DNA from: Candidatus Allofournierella excrementigallinarum
GTDB taxonomy: Bacteria > Bacillota > Clostridia > Oscillospirales > Ruminococcaceae
Direction: 5' to 3'
Assembly (NCBI GenBank): GCA_019119025.1
Contig: DWXV01000051.1
Coordinates: 1 to 64,000 of the forward strand
DNA length: 64,000 nucleotides
Shown: one piece after another, positions 14,899 through 19,299 of the stretch
Position numbering within the stretch: position 1 is the first letter of the stretch
How the letters are laid out: each line of letters opens with the position of its first letter
Notes under the pieces: generated by a model
What the model saw: only the letters and a program-made list of their open reading frames with translations
Told to the model about the DNA's origin: nothing
The model's database searches: none
Position numbers and translations under genes: made by a program

Positions 14899-15708
14899 TT
14901 GGTGGAATTTGAGCGAAAAGAGCGCTATACCGCCCAGGACCTGGTGCGCATCGTCGCCCTTCTGCGGGACCCCGTGAACGGCTGCCCCTGGGATAAGGAA
15001 CAGACCCACCAGTCCATCCGCGCAAACTTCATCGAGGAGACCTACGAGGCGCTGGAAGCCATCGACCTTGCCGACGCCCACCTCCTGGAAGAAGAACTGG
15101 GGGACGTGCTTTTGCAGGTGGCGCTCCACTGCCAGATGGAGGCCGAAAAAGGCGTCTTTGACTTCGATTCCGTGTGCGACGGCATCTGCAAAAAGCTCAT
15201 CTACCGCCACCCCCACGTCTTTGGCGACACGGTGGCCGCGACCACCGGCGAGGTGCTCTCCAACTGGGAGGCGCTGAAAAACGCCGAGAAGGCGCGCACC
15301 ACCGCCAGAAGCCGGCTGGAAAGCGTGCCCGCGGCCTTTCCCGCGCTGATGCGGGCGGCCAAGGTGCAAAAGCGCGCCGGGGCCTACGGCTTTGCCTACC
15401 CGGACGCCGCCGCCGCGCTGGCGGACCTGGAGAGCGAGCTGGCCGAGCTGAAAGAGGCCATGGCCTCGGGCCAGGGCGTCGAGTGGGAGCTGGGCGACGT
15501 GCTGTTTGCCGCCGTCAACCTGGGCCGCATGCTCGGGCAGGACAGCGAGCAGGCCCTCGGCCGGGCCACCGCCCGCTTCCAGGACCGGGTCATCTCCTGC
15601 GAGGAGCAGGCCGCCGCCGAGGGCAAAGCCCTGGAAGAGGTATCTCCCGCCGCCCTTGACCGCTACTGGAAAGTGGCCAAGCAGACTGAACAGACATCAA
15701 AGGGATGA
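14899..15708 (+). CDS. mazG: nucleoside triphosphate pyrophosphohydrolase MazG
   Basis: House-cleaning NTP pyrophosphatase, all-alpha. It has tandem MazG domains: the first with GCPWDKEQTH, the FIEETYEALEAID helix and EEELGDVLLQVALH (ExxE...ExxD Mg site); the second with KVQKRAGAYGFAYPD, LESELAELKEA and WELGDVLFAAVNLGR. At 269 residues it is a two-domain MazG without the N-terminal methylase domain of Bacillus YabN. The RBS AAGGAGG (14884-14890) favours TTG 14899 (or GTG 14902) over the GTG at 14890 that overlaps it. It starts the 'yab' gene order shared with Bacillus (mazG, rqcP, yabP, yabQ, divIC, S1). Confidence 0.92.
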   Translation: MVEFERKERYTAQDLVRIVALLRDPVNGCPWDKEQTHQSIRANFIEETYEALEAIDLADAHLLEEELGDVLLQVALHCQMEAEKGVFDFDSVCDGICKKLIYRHPHVFGDTVAATTGEVLSNWEALKNAEKARTTARSRLESVPAAFPALMRAAKVQKRAGAYGFAYPDAAAALADLESELAELKEAMASGQGVEWELGDVLFAAVNLGRMLGQDSEQALGRATARFQDRVISCEEQAAAEGKALEEVSPAALDRYWKVAKQTEQTSKG

Positions 15709-15747
15709 CCCCTTTGTGCTGGCATAAATTTTTGGAGGTAAAACATC

Positions 15748-16023
15748 ATGACCAAAGTTGAACTGATCGCGGCTGTCGCTGAGGCTGCCGAGCTGACCAA
15801 GAAGGACGCCGAGAAGGCTGTCAACGCCACTGTGGAAGTCATCACCAAGGCCCTGGCCGACGGCGATAAGGTCTCTCTGGTTGGCTTCGGCACCTTCGAG
15901 ACCCACAAGCGCGCCGCCCGCACCGGCATCAACCCCCGCACCAAGGAGACCATCCAGATCGCCGCTACCACCGCCCCCGCTTTCAAGGCCGGCAAGGCCC
16001 TGAAGGACGCGGTGTCCAAGTAA
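15748..16023 (+). CDS. hup: HU-family DNA-binding protein
   Basis: 91-residue histone-like protein that bends and packages DNA as a dimer. The sequence matches HU throughout: [39 protein letters not shown], and the beta-arm [22 protein letters not shown]. The RBS TTTGGAGGTAAAA precedes ATG 15748. Codon use looks optimised, as for a highly expressed gene. A terminator follows, so it can be a short abundant transcript inside the mazG-rqcP run. Confidence 0.97.
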
Positions 16024-16044
16024 TCACAGCGGACCCGATCTTCA

Positions 16045-16081
16045 ACGGCTCTGCCGCCGCGCCGCGGGGCAGGGCCGTTTT
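16045..16081 (+). terminator. terminator after hup
   Basis: Stem ACGGCTCTGCC (16045-16055) with GGCAGGGCCGT (16068-16078), one G-U pair, 12-base GC loop, then TTT and C. It is placed between hup and rqcP. Confidence 0.65.
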
Positions 16082-16120
16082 CTCGTTCGCCGGGCGCCCG
16101 GCGGGAAAGGAGCGAGCTTT

Positions 16121-16363
16121 ATGCGCATCGACAAATACCTGAAGGTCAGCCGCCTCATCAAGCGGCGCACCGTGGCCAACGAGGTGGCCGACGCGGGCCG
16201 CATCCTGGTGAACGGCAAGCCCGCCAAGGCCAGCTACGCCGTCAAGGAGGGGGACGTCATCGAGATCACCTTCGGCAACAAGCCGGTCAAGGTGCGGGTG
16301 CTGTCCACCCTGGCCCCCGCCGGCAAGGATGTGGCCCGGGAGATGTACGAGGTCATCGAGTGA
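16121..16363 (+). CDS. rqcP: S4-domain protein RqcP (Hsp15/YabO)
   Basis: 80-residue S4 RNA-binding protein (MRIDKYLKVSRLIKRRTVANE, GRILVNGKPAKASYAVKEGD). In Bacillus, RqcP works with RqcH in ribosome-associated quality control, stabilising peptidyl-tRNA on 50S during alanine tailing. The length and position in the mazG-yabP neighbourhood are as in Bacillus. GGAAAGGAG precedes ATG 16121. A very strong hairpin follows and separates it from the inserted regulator cassette. Confidence 0.93.
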   Translation: MRIDKYLKVSRLIKRRTVANEVADAGRILVNGKPAKASYAVKEGDVIEITFGNKPVKVRVLSTLAPAGKDVAREMYEVIE

Positions 16364-16380
16364 CCTCGCCCCAGCAGAAC

Positions 16381-16427
16381 AAACGCCCGGGGGGCCGCAG
16401 CCTTTGGCTGCGGCCCCCCGGGCGTTT
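16381..16427. terminator. very strong bidirectional hairpin
   Basis: Perfect 22-bp stem: arms 16381-16402 and 16406-16427 with a 3-base TTT loop, with AAA at the left foot and TTT at the right. It separates rqcP (forward) from the reverse-strand XRE genes and can stop transcription from both sides. Confidence 0.8.
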
Positions 16428-16429
16428 CA

Positions 16430-16681
16430 CTATTTCACTTCCTGTTCCAGGCCGCGGAACAACTCACTTGCAAAGAATTCCTGCATGGCGTTGCCCAGCC
16501 CGTCGCACAGCTTCTTCACGGTGGACACGGTGGCGCTGCGGTTGCGGCCACTGACGATGTTGTTCACGGTGGACTAGGTCACGCCGCTGATGTTGCACAG
16601 GTGGTTGACGGGAATATCCCGTTGCCTGCACAATTCCAGAATGCGCAGGCGCACAACCTCGCCAATGTCCATGGACGTCAT
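16430..16681 (-). pseudogene. XRE-family regulator interrupted by an amber codon
   Basis: Reverse-strand frame from ATG 16681 to TAG 16432-16430, 84 codons, broken by an in-frame TAG (16576-16574, codon 36). The 35 residues before (MTSMDIGEVVRLRILELCRQ ... CNISGVT) and the 47 after (STVNNIVSGRNRSATVSTVK ... EFFASELFRGLEQEVK) together make one Cro/C1-type helix-turn-helix protein. The stop sits where relatives of this kind have a glutamine (GVTQSTVNNI), so a single C-to-T change explains it. The stop splits the recognition helix, so no working regulator is expected without readthrough. The start overlaps the stop of the upstream XRE gene (ATGA), showing they were co-translated. Confidence 0.8.
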
Positions 16682-16986
16682 CGGATCTGATCGATCAGGG
16701 CAAGGACGGCGGCCTGCTGTTCGCGGTTGAGTCGGCTCCAGCGGTCCAGCAGGCGGCGCTGTTCCTCTGTCAGTTCCACCGGGTCTCCCTCTTCGGCAAA
16801 CAGCTGCGACAGGGTGATGTCGAACGCGGTGCAGATTTTTTCCAGGGAGGGCAGAGTGGGTACCATCTGCTTGCGATACCAAGAGGAGATGGTGGACTGG
16901 GGCAACCCCGAATGCTCTGCTAACTGGTATTCTGTCCAGCCCCGCGCCTGCCGCAGGGCCGTGATGACAGCGAGCACATCTTTCAC
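16678..16986 (-). CDS. XRE-family transcriptional regulator
   Basis: 102-residue Cro/C1-type DNA-binding protein: ALRQARGWTEYQLAEHSG, LPQSTISSWYRKQMVPTLP (helix-turn-helix), EKICTAFDITLSQLFAEEGD, then a charged C-terminal helix. Proteins with this sequence pattern are common in gut Clostridia; targets are unknown. The GTG at 16995 overlaps the RBS GGGAGG (17000-16995), so the downstream GTG 16986, spaced 8 bases, is the better start. It is transcribed divergently from the SLOG gene through a shared AT-rich region with repeated AACGAT boxes, so autoregulation is likely (inference). Confidence 0.85.
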   Translation of the reverse strand: MKDVLAVITALRQARGWTEYQLAEHSGLPQSTISSWYRKQMVPTLPSLEKICTAFDITLSQLFAEEGDPVELTEEQRRLLDRWSRLNREQQAAVLALIDQIR

Positions 16987-17020
16987 CTGCGCCACCTCCC
17001 GGACATTGTGCTTTTCGTAA

Positions 17021-17077
17021 ATTATACTGCGATAAATCGTTGTATTTTAATAACGATTGTCGTATAATTTTAACGAT
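17021..17077. promoter_or_regulatory. divergent promoters with repeated AACGAT operator boxes
   Basis: AT-rich island in GC-rich DNA. Forward promoter: TTGTAT (17040-17045), 17 bases, TATAAT (17063-17068), reading to the SLOG gene. Reverse -10: TATAAT on 17026-17021, reading to the XRE pair. Three AACGAT boxes: inverted at 17036-17041, direct at 17052-17057 and 17072-17077. The two direct copies are 20 bases (two helical turns) apart and flank the forward -10; the inverted copy overlaps the forward -35. The layout suggests binding by the adjacent XRE protein; this is inference. Confidence 0.65.
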
Positions 17078-17100
17078 AAACACAACTACGGAGGAAAGCC

Positions 17101-17550
17101 GTGAAACGGAACATCTGCTTTTTCATCGGCCACCGGGAGTGCGGGCAGGAACTGTACCCGACGCTGTGCGCGGCGGTGGAGCGGCACATTGTGGAAGAGG
17201 GTGCCACCGAGTTCTGGGTGGGCAACTATGGGGGCTTTGACCATATGGCCGCCCGGGCGTTGCAGGCGGCAAAACAGCGGCACCCGGAAATAAAGCTGTT
17301 CCGGCTACTGGTGTGGCACCCTTGCCGCCGGGCGGTGGAACTGCCACAGGGGTTCGACGGCAGCATTTACCCGCCGGACATGGAACGCGTGCCGCCCCGT
17401 GCCGCCATTCCGCGGGCAAACCGCTACGCGGTGGACAACGCCCGCTGGGTCATCGCCGCCGTCTGGCGCCCGGCCAGCAATGCCCGCGATCTTGTGGAGT
17501 ACGCCCTCCACCGCACCGGCGGACCTCAGGTCACACTGCTGCGCCGATGA
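17101..17550 (+). CDS. SLOG-superfamily protein (YpsA/DUF1273-like)
   Basis: 149 residues. The pattern FFIGHREC at the start, EFWVGNYGGFDHMAARAL, a KLFRLLVWHP strand and a late NARWVIAAVW block fits the Rossmann-like SLOG (YspA/YpsA-related) family, thought to bind nucleotides or nucleotide-derived ligands. No enzymatic activity is established for this branch. GTG 17101 follows GGAGG (17090-17094). It is the forward half of a cassette with two XRE genes placed between rqcP and yabP, which are near neighbours in the Bacillus gene order. Function unknown; a ligand sensor or stress-conflict component is possible. Confidence 0.75.
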   Translation: MKRNICFFIGHRECGQELYPTLCAAVERHIVEEGATEFWVGNYGGFDHMAARALQAAKQRHPEIKLFRLLVWHPCRRAVELPQGFDGSIYPPDMERVPPRAAIPRANRYAVDNARWVIAAVWRPASNARDLVEYALHRTGGPQVTLLRR

Positions 17551-17564
17551 TCCCCCGCCGCCGG

Positions 17565-17596
17565 TCATAACCGCCCGCCGCCTTGGCATATACATT
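17565..17596 (+). promoter_or_regulatory. possible sigma-E-type promoter for yabP-yabQ
   Basis: GGTCATAA (17563-17570) and GCATATACATT (17586-17596) resemble the -35 and -10 elements of mother-cell sigma-E promoters, with a spacing near the expected range. In Bacillus yabP and yabQ are sporulation genes. No sigma-A promoter is seen in this gap. Confidence 0.3.
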
Positions 17597-17618
17597 GGCG
17601 AAAAGGCAGGTGCAGACC

Positions 17619-17924
17619 ATGCAGGAAAAAAAGACCTCCGCCGCACGGCCCGCCGAAGCGCCGGCGGCAAAGCTTCCCCACCATCTCATCGTGGAGGACC
17701 GCAGCGTCCTCACCGCCACCGGCGTGACGCGGGTGGTGAGCTGCGACGAGACCGGCGCCACCCTCGAGACCCAGCAGGGCACCCTGCTGGTGGGGGGCGA
17801 GGGCCTGTCGGTGAGCGAACTGTCCATTCAGACGGGCGAGGTGAAAATTTTCGGGCGCATCGAGTCCATGCAGTACACCGAGCCTGCGCCGGCGGGCGGC
17901 CTGTGGCGCCGCCTGCTGCGCTGA
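17619..17924 (+). CDS. yabP: sporulation protein YabP
   Basis: 101-residue YabP/YqfC-family sporulation protein. The core HHLIVEDRSVLTATGVTRVV, a TQQGTLLVGGEGL turn and LSVSELSIQTGEVKIFGRIE is the family signature; a proline/alanine-rich N-terminus precedes it. Relatives are made in the mother cell; YqfC is needed for spore formation, while the molecular role of YabP is unclear. Start ATG 17619 follows AAGGCAGGTG; a TTG at 17583 in frame lacks an RBS. It ends 6 bases before yabQ. Confidence 0.85.
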   Translation: MQEKKTSAARPAEAPAAKLPHHLIVEDRSVLTATGVTRVVSCDETGATLETQQGTLLVGGEGLSVSELSIQTGEVKIFGRIESMQYTEPAPAGGLWRRLLR

Positions 17925-17930
17925 AGGCCC

Positions 17931-18761
17931 ATGGTGGCCCTTGCCGCCCCGCCCTACGTCCTGGCGGACACGCTGTGCTGCCTGGGCCTGGGCTTTTTCC
18001 TTGCGGTGTGCTACGATCTGGCCCGCTTCTTTTTGGGCGGCAGCCGCCCGGTGTGCTTTGTGCTGGACGTTGCCGCCGCCTTTGCCGCCGCGGTGCTGGC
18101 CTGCGGCTTTGCCGCCTCCCGCAGCTACAGCGGCGTGGTGCGCTGGTACATGGCCGCGGGCCTTGTTCTGGGGCTGGCAGGGTACTTTTTTGTGCTGGCG
18201 CCGGGGTGCGCCGCGGCCCAGCGCCTGGTAAAATGGGCCATCGCCCGGCCCTTTGTGCTTTTGTGGCTGCTGGCGGTGCGGCCCCTCGCACGCCTTTGCG
18301 GGCGGGCAGGACGCACCGCGGCGGACAAATTGCACGCAGCGGCCCAAAAACGCCGCAAAAAACAGTTGAAAAACAAAGGGCGTGTGTTGTATAATTCAGA
18401 TAACCCGTTGGCAACTCCACGGGGGCAATGCGCTCATTTTTCGGCAAAGGAGGCCGGCGGCATGGAGAAAAAGCAAAAGCGCGCGCCGCTGCTGCCCCGC
18501 TTTTTCCTGCGGGCGGGCCTCGTGCTGATCGGCGGCTATCTGGTGGCGGGCCTTGTGTTCAATCAGGTGGACATCGCCGCCAAGCAGAAGGAGCTGCAGG
18601 ACCTGGAGAATCAGCTGGAACAGCAGCGCCAGCAGAACGACGAGCTGGAGCGGGTGCTGGAATCCGGCAGCGACGCCGAGATCATCGAGCGGGTCGCGCG
18701 GGACAAACTGGGTTACGCCAAGCCCAACGAGCGGGTGTTCATCGACGTCACCGGCCAGTAA
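17931..18761 (+). CDS. yabQ: YabQ, continuous in frame with DivIC/FtsB
   Basis: The frame opening at ATG 17931 encodes a YabQ-like sporulation membrane protein: hydrophobic segments at about residues 15-35, 45-62, 70-95 and 98-115, then a basic tail (QKRRKKQLKNKGR, about 145-157). YabQ is required for spore cortex formation in Bacillus. No stop codon follows the tail; the frame runs about 20 further residues into the divIC start codon (residue 178) and on to its end, giving 276 residues in all. A vegetative promoter lies inside the yabQ 3' end. Either yabQ lost its stop and yields a YabQ-DivIC fusion during sporulation, or a sequencing difference hides a stop. Residues before 178 have no other known domain. 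Confidence 0.75.
   Translation: MVALAAPPYVLADTLCCLGLGFFLAVCYDLARFFLGGSRPVCFVLDVAAAFAAAVLACGFAASRSYSGVVRWYMAAGLVLGLAGYFFVLAPGCAAAQRLVKWAIARPFVLLWLLAVRPLARLCGRAGRTAADKLHAAAQKRRKKQLKNKGRVLYNSDNPLATPRGQCAHFSAKEAGGMEKKQKRAPLLPRFFLRAGLVLIGGYLVAGLVFNQVDIAAKQKELQDLENQLEQQRQQNDELERVLESGSDAEIIERVARDKLGYAKPNERVFIDVTGQ
18366..18395 (+). promoter_or_regulatory. sigma-A promoter of divIC inside yabQ
   Basis: TTGAAA (18366-18371), 18-base spacer, TATAAT (18390-18395), in the coding end of yabQ and 67 bases before the divIC ATG. It gives division gene expression independent of the sporulation genes upstream. Confidence 0.75.
18462..18761 (+). CDS. divIC: septum formation initiator DivIC/FtsB
   Basis: 99-residue bitopic division protein: a basic cytoplasmic tip (MEKKQKRAPLLPRF), a membrane helix at about residues 15-34 and an external leucine-zipper coiled coil (QKELQDLENQLEQQRQQNDE). 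The FtsB/DivIC end pattern follows (IIERVARDKLGYAKPNERVFID). It pairs with FtsL and FtsQ/DivIB in the septal peptidoglycan activation complex; ftsL and ftsQ are in the dcw cluster further along. A strong AAAGGAGG (18447-18453) is 8 bases before ATG 18462, showing an independent start although the frame is open from yabQ. Confidence 0.92.
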   Translation: MEKKQKRAPLLPRFFLRAGLVLIGGYLVAGLVFNQVDIAAKQKELQDLENQLEQQRQQNDELERVLESGSDAEIIERVARDKLGYAKPNERVFIDVTGQ

Positions 18762-18837
18762 ACGACGGCACAAAGGCCGCGGCACACCGCCGCGTTGCGG
18801 GCCTTTTGCAGAATAAACATAAAGGGGTTATATCGCG

Positions 18838-19299
18838 TTGCAGTTAGAGGTAGGGGCCATTCTGGAAGGAAAGATCACCGGCGTCAAGAAGTTCGGCGCC
18901 TTTGTTGCGCTGCCCGGCGGAAAGACCGGCATGGTGCACATTTCCGAAGTGTCCAACAGTTTTATCGAGGACCTGTCCACCGTGCTCAGTGAGGGGCAGG
19001 AGGTCAAGGTCAAGGTGCTCAGCATCGCGGAGGACGGCAAGATCGCCCTCTCCATCAAGCGCACCCTTCCTCCCGAGCCGCGCCCGAACCGGGGCGGCGC
19101 CCACGGCGGCCAGCGCGGCGGCCAGCGGGGCCGCTCCGATGCGCCCCGGGTCTGGCAGCCCAAGGCTGCCGCGCCCCAGGGAGAGATGAGCTTTGAGGAC
19201 ATGATGGCCAGGTTCAAGAGCCAGAGCGAGGAGAAGATCTCCGACCTCAAGCGGGTCACCGAGAACCGCCGCGGAGGCGGCTACTCCCGCCGGCGCTGA
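18838..19299 (+). CDS. yabR: S1 RNA-binding domain protein (YabR-like)
   Basis: 153 residues. The N-terminal 72 form an S1/OB domain (VGAILEGKITGVKKFGAFVA, GKTGMVHISEVSNSFIED, VKVKVLSIAEDGKIALSIK). An Arg/Gly-rich linker (GGAHGGQRGGQRGRS) and a short helical tail ending in RRGGGYSRRR follow. It is the usual last gene of the yab cluster, similar to Bacillus YabR/general stress protein 13, thought to bind ribosomes or RNA. The start is TTG 18838, 10 bases after AAAGGGG. A terminator follows at 19322. Confidence 0.88.
   Translation: MQLEVGAILEGKITGVKKFGAFVALPGGKTGMVHISEVSNSFIEDLSTVLSEGQEVKVKVLSIAEDGKIALSIKRTLPPEPRPNRGGAHGGQRGGQRGRSDAPRVWQPKAAAPQGEMSFEDMMARFKSQSEEKISDLKRVTENRRGGGYSRRR

Follow-up and report, generated by a model that had tools for sequence, protein, structure and literature searches.

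A YpsA-like SLOG gene under one probable XRE repressor, with a disrupted, probably displaced second regulator, inserted between rqcP and yabP

In the CI/Cro immunity regions of lambdoid phages, the repressor gene is divergent from its target, the operator lies over both promoters, and repressor and operator are exchanged as a block. XRE proteins are also frequent antitoxins, and in HipB/HigA-type modules a small XRE antitoxin is linked to a small effector gene. As for SLOG proteins, B. subtilis YpsA has a substrate-binding motif, GxD/E, represented by G53-x-E55, and its overproduction affects cell division (PMC6459960). For the YpsA-like SLOG proteins that phages carry, Iyer et al. (2022, PMC9503650) predict the sensing or cleavage of immune signals of the ADP-ribose type; their emphasis is on large phages and on fusions in which SLOG is joined to a Macro, NADAR or HTH domain.

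The locus described here lies in the window, a stretch of 64,000 nucleotides from Candidatus Allofournierella excrementigallinarum (contig C17 of genome G000; 2.1 Mb, 86 contigs); among named organisms, Candidatus Fournierella merdigallinarum (locus L032 = G002:C14) stands closest to it. The gene order that an earlier note on this DNA had given, mazG-hup-rqcP-cassette-yabP-yabQ/divIC-S1, was borne out, and rqcP was found in all of the 61 genomes searched. No structured RNA of Rfam matched in 15500-18900. Further to the right, a single open frame of 276 aa (17931-18761) covers both yabQ and divIC (YabQ 15-89, DivIC 198-273), an arrangement present in four congeners and not in G002 or G024; since divIC retains its own Shine-Dalgarno sequence and an ATG near 18463, a fusion is not certain. 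The features of the junction are the following.

16121-16363, plus strand: rqcP (S4-domain protein), left flank (Pfam S4, E=5e-13)
16381-16427: perfect 22-bp inverted repeat (16381-16402/16406-16427), intrinsic terminator between the convergent rqcP and XRE2
16430-16672, minus strand: XRE2, a disrupted small Cro/CI-type HTH gene with an in-frame TAG, read as a displaced former regulator
16574-16576, minus strand: premature TAG in XRE2, a Gln codon in relatives
16678-16995, minus strand: XRE1, an intact 105-aa repressor-type regulator (HTH_3, E=1e-10)
16996-17100: control region between XRE1 and SLOG (35% GC), conserved across the six loci of the XRE1 type
17021-17050, minus strand: XRE1 promoter, TTAAAA-18-TATAAT, with the -10 element conserved as ATTATACT on the plus strand
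17036-17053: central operator box ATCGTTGNNNTTTAATNA, predicted as the probable XRE1 site
17060-17076: predicted operator box TCGTATAATNNNNACGA, embracing the SLOG -10 element TATAAT (17063-17068)
17101-17550, plus strand: SLOG-fold gene, YpsA-like, 149 aa, GTG start
17619-17924, plus strand: yabP, right flank (Pfam YabP, E=1e-15)

This arrangement resembles a lambdoid immunity region in that an XRE-fold repressor is divergent from its target, a predicted operator lies over both promoters and block exchange occurs; it differs in controlling, through an operator that XRE1 would bind, one SLOG gene instead of a lytic programme. With HipB/HigA-type modules it shares the linkage of a small XRE regulator to a small effector gene, whereas its genes are divergent, there is no co-operonic toxin and the type of regulator is not conserved.

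The divergent gene had been called a SLOG gene, and its ORF does encode a protein with a predicted SLOG domain fold; the amino acid sequence alone scarcely supports the assignment, and it is the predicted fold that does. The protein gave no match in Pfam, NCBIfam, PADLOC or PHROGs at E 0.1 or better, and it can be identified solely by the alignment of its family and by its predicted fold. Against Pfam YpsA (PF06908) it scored 11.2 bits, below the gathering cut-off of 27.7, so that membership of this family is not supported. The alignment of its relatives matches YpsA weakly. Of the 25 aligned members, 22, including the window protein, match YpsA at E ≤1, with a best value of 4e-12. The AF2 model (pLDDT 89.5, pTM 0.86) found its best structural match in B. 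subtilis YpsA (PDB 2NX2; Foldseek E 6e-5), the SLOG Rossmann-like fold being shared across the whole window protein (Z 15.8, rmsd 2.9, 142 residues, 11% identity). Further structural matches were ShosA (Z 12.6), DprA (12.5) and LOG (10.8). Judged from the model, membership of the SLOG superfamily is well supported. G44 and D47 are invariant across the family, in a GxFD spacing, and lie near the position of the GxD/E motif of YpsA. Unlike YpsA, the window protein is accompanied by a divergent XRE gene, and the motifs GHRE and ASNARDLVEYA are found in its close family. The window genome contains a second SLOG gene (L002, G000:C72:1-2589), which is 31% identical to the first and also has a divergent XRE gene.

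The proposal that XRE and SLOG genes form a linked regulatory unit held well beyond the window. An HMM search placed a divergent XRE gene beside SLOG in 37 of the 41 close-family loci, some of which are near-duplicates and not all independent, and thus in 37 of 39 assessable ones, typically at a distance of about 90-170 bp. The four loci where no XRE was detected comprise one at a contig edge, one with a truncated SLOG gene and two that are truly without it (L144 and L161). Most loci of the wider SLOG family also have a divergent XRE, and HTH_3 alone matches 30 of the 35 upstream ORFs scanned; the whole 2.1-Mb window genome contains only 25 HTH_3 matches. The regulators of SLOG loci fall into eleven groups at 40% identity. 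At four loci (L035, L037, L006 and L019) the divergent regulator is followed by a second XRE of another type, in the way that XRE2 follows XRE1, and at L011 (G003:C52:16873-20259) an XRE gene is flanked on each side by a SLOG gene. Divergent XRE-SLOG pairs were not described in the literature searched; the main comparative survey of SLOG proteins (Burroughs et al., 2015) lay outside this search, and it is uncertain whether the pair as such is new.

The control region upstream of XRE1 had been described as AT-rich, and indeed its 105 bp have 35% GC, as compared to 65% for the window. In the six XRE1-type loci (window, L032, L038, L007, L149 and L153), this region has conserved boxes at its centre and surrounding the two -10 elements. 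The central box ATCGTTGNNNTTTAATNA occurs with 0-2 mismatches in all six, and with at least 3 in all other loci; TCGTATAATNNNNACGA occurs with 0-1 mismatches in all six, and with at least 4 elsewhere, save for one locus with 2. The control regions of the four XRE1-type loci tested are 66-87% identical in pairwise comparison (z at least 10.9 against dinucleotide shuffles), and the SLOG proteins of XRE1-type loci outside L032 are just 49-56% identical to the window SLOG. Between the window species and its sister species the control region is 87% identical. In the same comparison (G000 vs G002), dN/dS was 0.15 for SLOG and 0.18 for XRE1, as compared to 0.22 for yabP; by this measure SLOG and XRE1 are under purifying selection.

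XRE2 is a different case. Two minus-strand XRE genes had been reported, of which XRE1 proved intact and XRE2 disrupted by an in-frame TAG, at a codon that specifies Gln in all four close relatives compared. The ORF that remains has 45 aa and is without the first half of the HTH. The window XRE2 is 70-72% identical to intact XRE2-type regulators that adjoin SLOG in other genomes. In the sister species G002, an internal deletion removes most of the gene. The operator arm of XRE2-type loci was absent from the window when searched allowing up to 2 mismatches. Taken together, XRE2 reads as the dead leftover of an earlier repressor, stranded behind XRE1. Such genes are not always lost fast, since XRE2 is intact although stranded in G714 (L153), and behind XRE1 in G065 (L007) it looks intact and has its own operator. 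We also considered that TAG might be read as Gln, and rejected recoding as the main reading, because TAG ends only 1 of the 41 long window ORFs and because the sister species lost XRE2 by deletion; moreover, the terminal stop of XRE2 itself is also TAG, so that such reading would not yield a normal XRE2. Three SLOG homologues of other genera (L166, L167 and L163) each contain a single in-frame TAG, which in L167 falls on a Tyr position; these are probably decay too, though all are TAG, like that of XRE2.

XRE2-type loci share a 14-bp arm, AACCCTTTTGAGTT, which in those inspected forms an inverted repeat. This half-site was found with 0-2 mismatches in 10 of the 11 loci that have a close XRE2 (about 70% identical), and with at least 3 in all loci other than these eleven; the exception, L163, is of the XRE2 type, and an over-extended ORF start puts the scanned stretch off. 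For the two of eleven regulator types whose operators were compared (XRE1 and XRE2), the boxes are confined to loci of their own regulator type, save for L163 and one match with 2 mismatches (L141). The class of the operator tracks the class of the regulator, and not the SLOG phylogeny.

On the SLOG tree 16 regulator changes were counted; since this count had no null comparison and many forks are open, we relied only on supported sister pairs. One of them is formed by L153 (G714) and L167 (G664), which come from one genus and whose SLOG genes are sisters (100/99). Their flanks are conserved, XRE2 and its terminator being 93% identical and SLOG 86.5%, and what lies between them is not: 97 bp with the XRE2 operator in L167, and in L153 433 bp that comprise XRE1 together with the control region of its type. 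In the second case, L149 against its sister pair L150/L132 (93/91), a whole XRE2 unit stands in place of an XRE1 unit within conserved flanks. L007 holds both units in series. By comparison of these loci, regulator and operator are swapped as a block. The layout of the window equals that of L153, with XRE2 now dead; as the two SLOG proteins are just 53% identical, the exchanges were probably separate events. For the window locus, of which no XRE2-only ancestor is known, we infer the exchange from the other genomes, and its direction would be that of XRE1 replacing XRE2, because XRE2 was left behind without its operator. The second XREs of L035, L037 and L006 suggest a similar exchange with other regulators. 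We found no description of exchange at the operator level in the literature searched.

The cassette had been taken for an insertion, and comparison of the rqcP-yabP junction in related genomes supports one that is restricted to this lineage. With the cassette proteins as queries, tblastn found nothing at the junction in seven outgroup genera (G024, G012, G029, G016, G022, G035 and G028), nor in the congeners G001 and G004. Near full-length cassettes are present in two species of the genus, the window genome and Ca. Fournierella merdigallinarum, the latter (G002) with XRE1 and SLOG and with XRE2 mostly deleted. At the junction of G003 a relic is left, some 50 SLOG codons that have neither start nor promoter. 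A four-gene tree of the genus, (((G000,G004,G001),G003),G002), in which the branching of G000, G001 and G004 is poorly supported (43), sets the presences of the cassette around its absences. The simplest reading is that there was probably one old insertion, before the genus diversified, followed by loss or decay. The GC3 of the window SLOG (0.81) is near that of host genes (0.80-0.98), as against 0.37-0.59 in relatives at other places; this agrees with a long stay in the host. The SLOG gene of G002 has one T fewer at codon 6-7, and translation could begin at an in-frame ATG a little further upstream; this difference may represent an alternative start, decay or an assembly error.

The perfect 22-bp inverted repeat on the left is real, and its proposed role as a fence of the cassette did not stand: the empty-site genomes G001 and G004 have a comparable GC-rich inverted repeat with a T-run at the same place after rqcP. 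As species without the cassette have such a hairpin, the repeat is not a cassette edge and is best read as the terminator of rqcP itself, shared with XRE2. Nor does the site speak for present-day mobility, since there is no recombinase between rqcP and yabP, and no target-site duplication was seen by eye at the cassette edges against empty sites.

The family is patchy, being found in 21 of 397 family genomes and 7 of 391 class genomes. Four IMG/VR viral contigs (L128-L131) bear close homologues of the window protein, which recalls the phage-carried YpsA-like SLOG proteins (PMC9503650), although the window SLOG is stand-alone, divergent from an XRE gene and chromosomal. Serine or tyrosine recombinases, holin and endolysin genes are present in the regions of L128-L131, L033 and L034, the SLOG locus L038 contains a Rep protein, and the homologue L132 (OY725880.1) belongs to a 215-kb plasmid record of Subdoligranulum variabile. 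In this record the XRE2-SLOG pair has two copies of tet(W) in its neighbourhood, at distances of about 5 and 13 kb. The module is probably of mobile-element origin and now resident in a core gene cluster.

We consider it likely that the cassette consists of one SLOG effector, one repressor (XRE1) and a displaced, dead XRE2, and is a partly decayed module. XRE1 most likely binds the conserved boxes, which overlap both divergent promoters as predicted, and would repress its own gene and the SLOG gene until a signal relieves repression; this regulatory reading we hold to be probable. The SLOG protein would then most likely bind or cleave a nucleotide-type ligand, as predicted for phage YpsA-like SLOG proteins. 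In the past, XRE1 and its operator would have replaced the operator of XRE2 between XRE2 and SLOG, and XRE2, now behind XRE1 and without a binding site, would have decayed.

The earlier note had seen in the two XRE genes a compact sensing switch, in which both regulators work and jointly control SLOG. Tandem XRE1-XRE2 genes behind a divergent SLOG do recur, compactly in G714 and spaced in G065, and a second XRE follows the first also in L035, L037 and L006; nonetheless, a working switch is very improbable here, as the TAG falls in the HTH of XRE2, the sister species has deleted part of the gene, the XRE2 operator arm was not found in the window, and an XRE1 block replaces the XRE2 operator between two loci of one genus. 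It is the operator swap and the stranding of XRE2 among relatives that make us prefer a SLOG gene with one repressor to a two-regulator sensor. It is unlikely that the whole insertion is by now a functionless remnant: XRE2 is dead, the start of SLOG is altered in the sister species, G003 has a truncated copy and G001 and G004 none, but the dN/dS values of SLOG and XRE1 are similar to that of the neighbouring yabP and the control region is well conserved between the two species.

What the SLOG protein does is a separate matter. As a toxin neutralised by XRE1, it would recall overproduced YpsA, which blocks division (PMC6459960), and would account for the tight linkage of the two genes and for the fact that no intact SLOG of its family occurs in the genus without XRE1. 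We hold such a toxin-antitoxin pair to be quite unlikely, since the genes are divergent with separate promoters and not in the shared operon of a type II module, intact SLOG genes without an adjoining XRE exist (L144 and L161), and regulators of eleven sequence groups serve one SLOG family, which is hard to reconcile with a matched antitoxin that neutralises the toxin. A host anti-phage defence gene regulated by XRE1 would find parallels in Thoeris ThsA, a protein with a SLOG domain that the structural comparison also matched (8wc0, Z 9.0), and in the homologue L039/L131, which adjoins genes resembling a type I restriction system. No PADLOC model matches the SLOG protein, however, the cassette has no effector partner, and homologues lie close to lysis and integration genes of phages, a setting that fits cargo or counter-defence just as well; a defence role seems improbable.

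Within the preferred reading, of a SLOG gene with one repressor, handling of a nucleotide signal in phage-host conflict is a tentative suggestion by analogy, which we regard as possible. More doubtful is the broader idea that stand-alone YpsA-like SLOG genes are a widespread family of phages and mobile elements, kept under exchangeable XRE repressor-operator blocks that are swapped like immunity regions and leave stacked fossil repressors behind; the specificity of the repressor might then be a compatibility tag, by which a gene for handling nucleotide signals, in counter-defence or exclusion, stays silent as long as no element with another tag comes in.

Seen in this way, an odd gene cluster becomes a readable history, in which a foreign switch arrived, its repressor was probably exchanged, as is seen between two loci of one genus, and the copy in the core locus decayed. 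The exchange of a regulator-operator block around one small effector is a minimal-scale parallel to the exchange of phage immunity regions. The recurrent XRE-SLOG pairing also opens a way to test what phage-borne YpsA-like SLOG proteins do, which so far has only been predicted, since the timing of their production can be approached through the repressor.
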